A DNA stretch of 64,000 bases from assembly GCA_949517355.1 (NCBI GenBank), contig CATDIL010000001.1:124001-188000 (forward strand), read 5' to 3'. The DNA is from an uncultured Mycoplasmatota bacterium. Its GTDB lineage: Bacteria; Bacillota_I; Bacilli_A; Mycoplasmatales; Mycoplasmoidaceae. The position numbers and the translations under genes were made by a program. The notes under the pieces are model-generated. The model did no database searches, was not told the DNA's origin, and saw only the letters and a list, made by a program, of their open reading frames with translations. Positions 33,055-42,048 of the stretch are shown here, in pieces. Each line of letters begins with the position of its first letter. The stretch's first letter is position 1.

Positions 33055-33456
33055 GGGGATGTCAAGGCTTCGACATGAATAATTGACTACCAAATGCAGT
33101 GGGGTTTGCCCCTTATAGCTCAAGGTCTTCTTAAATGCAGACAACAACAATGACAACGTTAACATGGACGAAGCATTCATGATTAACCAAATGTCAAACC
33201 AAAACCTTAATTTAGCATATTTAGCTTAATTTAACTTTGGAATAGGTATTAGTGTTTGCTATTTACATTAATACATTAACATAAATAGCTATATTCTTTG
33301 ACTCCGATAAGAAGAATTAATCCTATCGGATTAGTTAAACATAGGTTTGTTTTATTACCTAATAATGTTTAATGAATGCTCTAAATTAAAACTAAACTGT
33401 AGACTTTGATAGAAGGTTATTTGTGGAAACGGGTTCAATTCCCGTCATCTCCACCA
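33055..33456 (+). ncRNA. ssrA: Transfer-messenger RNA (tmRNA)
   Basis: The 5' end GGGGATG pairs with the 3' CATCTCC before ACCA, which is encoded. GTGGAAACGGGTTCAATTCCCG is the TΨC arm. The tag frame resumes at GCA (33137) and ends TAA (33227-33229). It gives 30 residues beginning ADNNNDNVNM and ending NLNLAYLA, long as usual in mycoplasmas. A strong terminator follows. Confidence 0.95.
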
Positions 33457-38049: not shown

Positions 38050-38940
38050 TTATTCTTCCCCCCCCCAAGTTATGTATTGGTCATATCTGTTAAATCCGTT
38101 TTCTGAGGAATAATAACCTAATCAATATTCAAAATTGGTAAAAAACTTTGTTAAACCATATGTCATTTTTCTAGATTTGATTAAATGATATCCAATTCAA
38201 TATGATGATGTAATTAATAATGCAAAAATAAAATCTAAGAAATAATGAACCTTTAGAGTAAATGTAGCAAAACAAACACTTAAACAAAATAATACCATTA
38301 ACGATGTTGATATTCCCTTAGTTCATGAAATAGCTTTAGTGTTATTAACTTTAACATTAAATCCTAACGTATGATCTTCATTATCAAAATAATTAAAATC
38401 AATAATTGCATATGTTAATACTAATGTATTACTGCAGTGATCTGAAGGAAAACATGAATAATGAGACATGCCAAGTAAAGTAGTTTGTAATGACTTATAT
38501 AATCATTCATCATTCCCTGATGCAATTATTGCGTTAACTTGTGACAGTCCATAATCTTCAATTGTTTCAGAAGACACAGGATAAAGAATGTTTATTGCAA
38601 AATTTGTTGAATAGACAACGATTGCAATAGCAATCAATTTTGAGAACCTTCTTTTACCATAAACAAAATAAATAATCATAGGTATTACGATTCATGATAC
38701 ATTACCTAGTTTATAAAATATAAGGAAACCAACATAGATTGGTATTTTCCTATCAATTGATAAATCTAGTGAATGTAGCTTTCAGTTTGTTTTTGTTTCA
38801 AATATTTTTTGAAAAACACTACCAATATTTCACTGATTAGCAGTAATAGTGTGAAAAAGTAATCCAAATAAAATTGAAGCAAATAACAGATTATGAATTT
38901 TTAAATAGTCTTTTAAGCAAAATTTATTAACTTTGAACAC
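38050..38940 (-). CDS. PAP2-family membrane phosphatase with G9 tract near the end
   Basis: The 296-residue product has several transmembrane helices, CFPSDHCSNTLVLTYAI (PSxH motif of PAP2 phosphatases) and FTLKVHYFLDFIFALL (second catalytic His and Asp). The family removes phosphate from lipid phosphates. The likely start is GTG 38940, with no clear SD. A run of nine G on the coding strand (38058-38066) precedes the stop, ending ITWGGEE. With eight G the frame would continue 43 codons past the tract to 37917, adding a hydrophobic segment (YVLIDLLAISIMLLEAYSI). Confidence 0.8.
38058..38066. repeat. Homopolymer C9/G9 contingency tract
   Basis: Nine consecutive C on the plus strand in very AT-rich DNA, inside the PAP2 gene, where a one-base change switches its C-terminus. 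Confidence 0.8.
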
Positions 38941-39114: not shown

Positions 39115-39146
39115 TTGTTCCAAAAAAAAAAAAAAAAGAGTATTAT
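39115..39146 (+). promoter_or_regulatory. Lipoprotein promoter with A16 spacer tract
   Basis: TTGTTC (39115-39120) resembles a -35 box and TATTAT (39141-39146) a -10 box. Between them are 20 nt of which 16 are a pure A run (39122-39137). The -10 is 7 nt before the ATG at 39154. Tract-length change would alter -35/-10 spacing, as in variable mycoplasma lipoproteins. Confidence 0.6.
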
Positions 39147-39153
39147 TACTAAT

Positions 39154-41473
39154 ATGTATATGAGAAAACTTTTAAAAAAATTTTTATTATTTTTAGGCTC
39201 TAGTTGCATTATTTCTAGCGTAACAAATGTTACTTCTTGTTCAATTCGTAACGATAAACAACTAGAAAGCATTTGTATTAAATATGATAATTCGTTTGAT
39301 TCACCAACTATCGTTGGGTATATTGGTGTAGATGAAACAATAGATGATAAATTGTTTTCTACAGTTGCCAGTCCATCAGGCGCACCTAATGATGCAACAT
39401 TTACAATTGAGGATGGAACTGACTCAAGAATTAAAATTGGTGGCACAAACAATAATCAATTAGTATGAGGAAATTTTGCTCAACCAACTGATATTACTTT
39501 TAAAGTAATCGCTACATCTAACATAATTCCTACTGTGTTTGGTGAAATTGAAGTAACACTAAGCATTCAACAACGACCAAATCCTACTTCTATTAAATTA
39601 GGGTATTCAGGTGAATCAACAAATTTAGTAGCAACTATTAAAGATACAACTAAATCAATTGGTAAAATTTCCTCTCAAGTTATACCTTCATATGCTCGTC
39701 CCGAGGTTAGATATGAAATTAGAAATAACGATAGTTCAGTTGATATCTCATTAGATTCAGATGGATATATTACTTGACCTCAGTTTCAAACACCAACAAA
39801 TCAAGATATTCATTTTGATGTGGTTGGTACTGCAATTTATGGCGACGCAACTAATTCAATATCTTTTACATTGAAAGCCATTTATGCTCAAACTGCATCA
39901 GTTGAATTATCTTATTCATCAGAAAACAAGAACCTACGTGGGTACATCGGTGAAAGTGGAAATACAGGAACTGACAAATTATCTACAGTAGTAAAACCAA
40001 ATAACGCAGACCAATCTGTCACTTATGAAGTAAATATTGCAGAAGAATATAAAGATAGTGTGCAAATTGGTTCAGGTGGTCAGATTGAATGGTCAAGGAT
40101 CAATAACACTATTAATTCTATTCCTTTTTCTGTTGTAGCAAAGAGTACTGCTGATTCTTCAAAAATTAGTGATCCTATTAATTTTGACTTAGAAATTACA
40201 AGAAGAAATCCAACAAGTCTTAGAGTTAACTATTCTGAAAGCACAAATTTGGTAACTACAATTTTAAATCAAACAAAATCAACTGGTACATTATCTGTAG
40301 GTGTTGAACCGGCGTTGGCATTCGATGATTGTGAATGAATTATCAATGATCCTAATAATTTAGGAATACAAATTGATGAAAATAATTACATTACATGAAA
40401 TGCATTTAATGAACCTACAGATCAATCTAAATCATTTAGCATCCAGGCTAGAGCAACACATGGTGAAGCACTAAGTAATGTTGTTAATTTTACAATTAAA
40501 GCTGTATATCAACCATTAGCTGTAAATATACTATGAAAAAAATTCATCATCATTGATTCCTGTTGCTTCTGGTATCAACGGACAATCATCTACTATTAGT
40601 GATTTATCAGCAATTGTCAACCCTAAACCAGGAACAGATCAAGATGTAATTTGATCAATAGATAATACACGATACTTTTCAATTAATGAAAGTGGAATTA
40701 TTACTGTAAAAAATACATTCCCTGAAAATACTACTATGAGATCCACAATTACTGCAACATCTAAAATTGATTCTACTGTTTTTGCAACAACAGAATTTGA
40801 ATTCACATCAATCCCAAACAATGTATATCCATATGAAGATATGGAAATTAATTCTAATGGTAAATTAGTAAGCATCGACATTGACAAAGCATCAGAATAT
40901 ACTGAGTTTGTTTTTCCTACTGAAGTCACAGAATCTGATCAATCTATTGCTCAAGCTTTAAATAATGTATCAAATGCTCCAACAAAAGTTAGTTTTGCTA
41001 AAGGATCTAAATTTACAAATACATATCGATTTTTATGATACGGTTGTTTAGAAATTGATTTTTCAAATTGTGAAGATTTAGAAATTTTAGATGAATTTAA
41101 TTATAGAGGTGACCCTGAAGATCCTAATGTTAAATTGCAAAAAATAATTCTCCCTGTAAATATTAAATATTTTAGAGGTGTAACAATTAAAACTTGCCAA
41201 GATCTTTACATGATTGTTTGAGATGGTGCTGGAAAAAATACTCCTTGTCAATTGAATTTAAGTCCGTCAGAAGATGAACCACACATAGATCCAACTGGAT
41301 TTGAATTTACTTCTACACGCTGAATTAATTCAACTGATTCTGCTAAAGGAAGATTTGTGATTCAAAACACAACTAGCGGATATCAATCATCTAGTTTAAT
41401 GGAACAATTTGTCAATTGTATATACACTGACTGTCACTATACATTTACAAACTCTCATTGATCAGCTGTTTAA
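39154..41473 (+). pseudogene. Ig-like/LRR surface lipoprotein, frameshifted
   Basis: The start MYMRKLLKKF leads a signal peptide ending in a lipobox (VTSC, Cys about residue 30). Five repeats of about 95-100 residues follow, each opening like SIKLGYSGESTNLVATI or SVELSYSSENKNLRGYI and holding a GYITW or GQIEW turn, typical of bacterial Ig-like domains. The C-terminal part (FSNCEDLEILDEF, LQKIILPVNIKYF) is like BspA leucine-rich repeats. The frame breaks at an A7 run (40536-40542). Upstream reading stops at TAG 40597; downstream coding resumes one base shifted and runs to 41473. It is either a pseudogene or reversibly switched. Confidence 0.8.
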
Positions 41474-41635: not shown

Positions 41636-41709
41636 TGGAGCGGGTAATCGGAATCGAACCGACATCAATAGCTTGGAAGGCTATGGTTCTACCACTGAAC
41701 TATACCCGC
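41636..41709 (-). tRNA. tRNA-Gly(UCC)
   Basis: GCGGGTA...TACCCGC acceptor, anticodon loop CTTCCAA, T-arm GGTTCGATTCC, encoded CCA. Last gene of the five-tRNA cluster. Confidence 0.95.
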
Positions 41710-41715
41710 TTAAAA

Positions 41716-41801
41716 TGGTGCTGAAAGAGGGACTTGAACCCTCACGGTATTGCTACCACAGGATTTTAAGTCCTGTGCGTCTACCATTCCGCCACTTCAG
41801 C
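41716..41801 (-). tRNA. tRNA-Leu(UAA)
   Basis: 86 nt with a long variable arm, anticodon loop CTTAAAA, T-arm GGTTCAAGTCC, encoded CCA. Confidence 0.95.
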
Positions 41802-41806
41802 ATAAA

Positions 41807-41881
41807 TGGTGTCCCACCGGAGAATCGAACTCCGGACCCCTTCATTAAAAGTGAAATGCTCTACCGCTGAGCTAGTGAGAC
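41807..41881 (-). tRNA. tRNA-Lys(UUU)
   Basis: 75 nt, acceptor GTCTCAC/GTGGGAC, anticodon loop CTTTTAA, T-arm AGTTCGATTCT, encoded CCA. Confidence 0.95.
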
Positions 41882-41885
41882 ATAA

Positions 41886-41960
41886 TGGCTGGGTAGGTTG
41901 GATTCGAACCAACGCATGTCAGAATCAAAATCTGATGCCTTACCGCTTGGCTACAACCCA
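41886..41960 (-). tRNA. tRNA-Gln(UUG)
   Basis: 75 nt, acceptor TGGGTTG/CTACCCA, anticodon loop TTTTGAT, T-arm GGTTCGAATCC, encoded CCA. Confidence 0.94.
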
Positions 41961-41963
41961 AAC

Positions 41964-42048
41964 TGGTGGACGAGAGTGGATTCGAACCACTGAAACCGGA
42001 GGTGGCTGATTTACAGTCAGCTGCGTTTGGCCGCTTCGCTACCCGTCC
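41964..42048 (-). tRNA. tRNA-Tyr(GUA)
   Basis: 85 nt with a long variable arm, anticodon loop CTGTAAA, T-arm GGTTCGAATCC, encoded CCA. First gene of the cluster; an AT-rich promoter region (42049-42154) precedes it, with TATAGT near 42060. Confidence 0.95.

Follow-up and report, generated by a model that had tools for sequence, protein, structure and literature searches.

In mycoplasmas, insertions and deletions in the spacer between the -35 and -10 elements switch the promoters of the vlp genes of Mycoplasma hyorhinis, of maa2 in M. arthritidis and of vmm in M. mycoides (PMC2268961; for vlp and vmm also PMC10502178), and in the vlp family all members have a homopolymeric A-tract in their promoters (PMC10502178, PMC2268961). 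For the vlhA genes of M. gallisepticum, each promoter contains GAA repeats, whose number varies among orthologues while the flanks are conserved and whose ON state is at 12 repeats (PMC6258824). A T-tract located just upstream of the -10 region of the vpma promoter of M. agalactiae was also tested, and it showed no switching, the variation in that system occurring via Xer1 recombination (PMC2268961). A search on phase variation in uncultured gut mycoplasmas found no papers within the literature collection that it covered.

The 64-kb stretch of DNA analysed in this work (hereafter, the window) contains a run of 16 A residues in a candidate promoter of a lipoprotein gene, and the same arrangement, referred to below as the cassette, precedes further surface genes both in this genome and in related species. 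Similar to vlp, the A-tract is located in promoters of surface lipoproteins, between the -35 and -10 elements, and the window promoter is vlp-like in all testable respects; the parallel with vlp drawn in the preliminary description fits well where the mechanism is concerned (PMC10502178, PMC2268961). However, unlike the vlp genes, which cluster at one chromosomal region, the eight cassette loci of this genome are dispersed on four contigs (viz. C1, C2, C5 and C7) and their genes encode BspA-type leucine-rich repeat (LRR) and other lipoproteins as well as a glycosyltransferase, while switching is in this case inferred. Due to their dispersal and the LRR proteins that they encode, the cassette genes are considered to be outside the vlp gene family. 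The cassette resembles vmm and maa2 in that the length of the spacer between -35 and -10 would be the regulator, as it is of transcription in those systems, but the repeats in vmm are dinucleotides, whereas those described here are poly-A and occur in dozens of copies. What it has in common with vlhA is that the lipoprotein genes form a large family and that each promoter contains a repeat varying in number between conserved flanks; however, the vlhA repeat is a trinucleotide upstream of the core promoter, whereas the present one is a mononucleotide inside the core spacer. A homopolymer adjoining the -10 box of a lipoprotein promoter is also a feature of vpma, and as the T-tract there does not switch, this precedent counts against reading the cassette in terms of slippage, but vpma is a single promoter, unlike the cassette family. 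The proposed mechanism is one that is already known, and what is new is its unusually large and dispersed repertoire.

The A16 tract and its candidate promoter elements

Direct reading of the plus strand at 39115-39146 gives, in order, TTGTTC (39115..39120), a C (39121), the A16 homopolymer (39122..39137), GAG (39138-39140) and a -10 box, TATTAT (39141..39146), which matches TATAAT at 5 of 6 positions. The lipoprotein gene lies directly downstream, with ATG codons at 39154 and 39160, which open the signal peptide MRKLLKKFLLFLGSSCIISSVTNVTSC with the lipobox VTSC. The preliminary description, which had placed A16 between TTGTTC and TATTAT ahead of a lipoprotein gene (39115-39160), is confirmed by this reading, and its placing of the tract in the spacer of a promoter that controls a surface lipoprotein is supported, the signal peptide being of the lipoprotein kind and the boxes themselves being assigned from their conservation. 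The site was left uncalled by a generic sigma-70 consensus scan, because TTGTTC agrees with TTGACA at no more than 3 of the 6 positions.

The A16 tract is the only run of A or T longer than 9 in the window. There are 419 such runs of length 5, 228 of length 6, 80 of length 7, 10 of length 8 and one of length 9, and the next is the single run of 16. The number of runs of at least 16 expected per 64 kb is 0.017 under a Markov model of order 1 and 0 under models of orders 3 and 5, all of them trained on the window minus the tract. As a control for the layout, 319 runs of A6-9 in the window were considered, and only 2 of them have both TTG/TTC before the run and TATWW within 6 nt after it.

The usual optimum for the spacer between -35 and -10 is about 17 nt. 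If TTGTTC is taken as the -35 element, then the spacer at this locus is 20 nt, and the preliminary description noted on this basis that three fewer A residues (A13) would give the usual 17 nt, which would make A13 the ON state. This part of the proposal is not supported, as a second -35-like hexamer, TTCCAA (39118..39123, plus strand), adjoins the tract and gives a spacer of 17 nt at A16. The proximal TTG/TTC is kept in 43 of 52 cassette copies, in comparison to 22 of 52 for the distal TTG (raw counts, uncorrected for shared ancestry), and most of the other copies have TTGCAA or TTGAAA as the proximal hexamer, the window copy having TTC where most copies have TTG. In this register, the spacers over the 46 copies that were scored range from 16 to 22 nt. 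Due to the better conservation of the proximal register and the 17-nt spacer that it gives, A16 might just as well be the ON length, and ON or OFF cannot be called from sequence alone.

The cassette family in this genome, its sister species and the genus

In the whole genome (636 kb in 9 contigs), A/T runs with a length of at least 12 number ten. Eight of them show one layout (as against the 2 of 319 short-run controls), which begins with TTG or TTC, in some cases followed by a C, and continues with A14-19, G(A)nG, either TATA or TATTAT, and a start codon within about 50 nt. The remaining two are T runs on the coding strand, T16 (C1:7212-7227) and T25 (C1:123498-123522), both just upstream of promoter-like sequence; as the genes that follow encode a lipoprotein (T16) and a probable membrane protein (T25), these runs are also located at envelope genes. 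The cassette is limited to envelope genes in this genome, and its near-identical paralogous promoters have tracts of A16, A17, A17 and A19.

Orthologues of three of these promoters were compared with those of the sister species (G048, record CASPLF01). In the promoter of the glycosyltransferase, the tract is A14 in this genome and A15 in the sister species, with 0 indels in the 800 flanking bases compared; in the promoter on contig C7, it is A16 versus A17, with 1 indel in about 600 flanking bases. Thus, at two loci the repeat length differs between close relatives while the flanks remain constant, this being a comparison between species. At the window locus, a pure A16 is present in both species even though the flanks are only 79-88% identical; the GAG of this genome is GAAG in the sister species, making the spacer longer by 1 there, and TTGTTGC is found at its distal -35 position. 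The overall pattern looks like that of a hypermutable tract kept by selection.

Across the genus, at least 52 cassette copies with a -10 box are present in six species, 8 of them in this genome and 4, 10, 18, 11 and 1 in the others. The TAT start of the -10 box was the criterion by which the copies were selected, and the A/T positions 4-8 of the box are strongly conserved among them. The tracts range from A14 to A22, the consensus being TT[G/C](C)-A14..22-[C/G]AG-TATAAAT, and in most copies the start codon follows the tract at a distance of 29-33 nt. The cassette is nearly always located 13-51 nt before a lipoprotein gene, in most cases one with BspA-type leucine-rich repeats, and where a start could be read almost every gene encodes a signal peptide of the MNKK/MKNK lipoprotein type; the leucine-rich repeats were found in the genes of the family that were scanned (Pfam LRR_5, E down to 2e-43). 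A family 2 membrane glycosyltransferase is driven by one of the cassettes (C2:65667-65680, A14), and this gene is conserved in the sister species, where its cassette has A15 (C17). Due to this, a surface glycan may switch too.

The pattern TTGTTS-A10+-GTATA was found in 5 of the 36 genomes of the genus, whereas its base-reversed control gave 0 in all genomes, and when the -35 requirement was dropped the number rose to 7 of 36. Across the order, a stricter pattern was found in 7 of 320 genomes; the two that come in addition to the five of the genus are Mesomycoplasma-like, and one of these two would appear to be Mycoplasma sp. 'Moose RK'. A scan of IMG/VR with the cassette pattern gave zero matches. 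Further, in other species of the genus lipoprotein genes are preceded by long A runs whose flanking bases are different, and due to this the habit of placing poly-A before such genes may extend past this cassette. Among 15 Mesomycoplasma-like species, 14 have poly-A of 14-21 immediately before TATAAT, and the genes concerned are often orthologues whose tracts differ in length. When the vlp promoter was sought in these genomes, the poly-A/TATAAT promoters found were those of other genes, and none was identifiable as vlp. The record JAGAJR01 (RGIG8504) was considered as a same-species comparison and dropped, as it is 1.6 Mb in size, labelled Alphaproteobacteria, and gives only short matches of 73-85% to the window. 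It contains five copies of TTGTTGC-A12/13-N4-TTAGTATAGATAGT, upstream of signal-peptide genes where these are readable, and the A12/13 promoters of this gut proteobacterial MAG apparently constitute a poly-A family separate from the cassette.

Proposed promoter-spacer slippage and alternative readings

Based on the shared layout of the family, the one-A differences between orthologues and the clean flanks, slippage in the promoter spacer is the best reading of the cassette, and we consider it highly probable that the poly-A cassettes are slippage switches of surface-protein promoters. The slippage switch proposed in the preliminary description is in this regard very likely, given the 52 copies from A14 to A22 and the orthologues differing by one A, while the switching itself is what we infer. 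Points against it at the window locus are the failure of the consensus scan to call the site, the TTC in place of the commoner TTG and the frame break of the gene. If this reading is correct, then A16 would form the spacer of a sigma-A-type promoter driving the surface lipoprotein, and slippage of the DNA polymerase would alter the number of A residues, and thereby how far apart the -35-like element and the -10 box lie and how they are rotated relative to each other. Only at some tract lengths would RNA polymerase then initiate, and single cells would turn the protein on or off in a reversible and heritable manner, so that a clone would vary the surface that it presents towards the host. As the same cassette is present before other surface genes, in this genome as well as in the sister species, each cell would possess many independent switches. 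A more far-reaching proposal, for and against which we give about equal weight, is that in a subset of species of one uncultured mollicute genus much of the surface (lipoproteins and a glycosyltransferase) is under the control of one duplicated and dispersed cassette, whose copies act as independent single-nucleotide slippage switches, up to about 18 per genome, providing very many surface states without recombinases or gene conversion. A switch that has been described in a small number of cultured mycoplasmas of animals would have been multiplied into a dispersed bank of surface-gene switches in their uncultured relatives. Further, because the copies are many and alike and differ in length, the ON length should be derivable statistically from paired metagenome DNA and RNA reads, without culture.

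Among the alternatives, the one that best survives, although it is unlikely, is that the A-tract is a fixed constitutive element, viz. a stretch of rigid or curved DNA that stands in for a weak -35 and whose length drifts while expression stays constant. A precedent for this is the vpma T-tract, for which slippage-based switching was not found (PMC2268961), and the poly-A before TATAAT at orthologous genes across Mesomycoplasma-like species is also consistent with it. However, a fixed element of this kind accords poorly with the seven spacer lengths (16-22) found across otherwise conserved cassettes, and also with the restriction of the cassette to envelope genes in this genome. The spread in spacer length exceeds what sigma-A promoters usually tolerate. 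It is considerably less probable, and in our view can be given little credence, that transcription starts upstream and that the tract is part of a leader acting on translation or RNA stability. A-rich leaders can help translation, and a TAAAATATAAAAA stretch is present upstream of the window tract, but the TATAAAT box that immediately follows the tract is conserved across the 52 copies while the upstream flanks differ, and the start codon is about 30 nt past the tract. Lastly, although the GC content is 27% and A runs of 14 or more are present in 27 of the 36 genomes of the genus, the view that the tract is a chance or mutational-bias homopolymer of an AT-rich genome is already refuted by the gap in run lengths from 9 to 16, the Markov expectations and the enrichment of the layout among the long runs.

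The lipoprotein gene and neighbouring sequences

The lipoprotein gene (39154..40599, plus strand) more likely starts at the ATG at 39160 than at 39154, as the former aligns with the start of its orthologue in the sister species. Its frame runs through several TGA codons, due to which this genome is considered to use TGA for tryptophan, and it ends early; a frame break is located near 40530-40545, and the rest of the gene continues in another frame (40538..41473, plus strand). No family was matched by the first frame in a Pfam scan, and the distal part gave a weak match to the Ig-like Big_2 below the Pfam cut-off. The dN/dS value of 0.25 over the first 327 codons, relative to the sister-species orthologue, indicates that this part of the gene is under purifying selection. 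However, the orthologue is also frame-broken, at a different place, and as both are frameshifted the protein may never reach full length; either the lipoprotein is made in a shortened form, or this member of the family is decaying, or the breaks are assembly errors. The frame break weakens this gene as a model, but the promoter family is unaffected by it.

The neighbouring gene (38050..38940, minus strand), which encodes a PAP2-family membrane protein, is divergent, and hence no upstream gene reads into the A16 tract. A role for A16 as a transcription terminator was ruled out, based on this orientation and a negative search for terminator-like hairpins. A run of nine C on the plus strand (38058-38066) corresponds to G9 in the PAP2-family gene, close to its 3' end; the orthologue of this gene in the sister species has seven G and altered last residues, and this run is a second length-variable homopolymer adjoining the lipoprotein locus. 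A cluster of five tRNA genes (Gly, Leu, Lys, Gln and Tyr) and a tmRNA gene are located at 41636-42048 and 33055-33456, respectively, and the open reading frames listed across the tRNA cluster are spurious.

In the case of the A18 promoter at C2:2894-2911, the lipoprotein gene is frame-broken within its signal peptide, and due to this coding-level OFF states or decay would also appear to occur in the cassette family. Several contigs (C1 at both ends, C2, C5, C6, C7 and C8) break off within genes for LRR lipoproteins, which have long repeats in common. Several LRR frames are without a recognisable signal peptide, and these are possibly silent donors for recombination.
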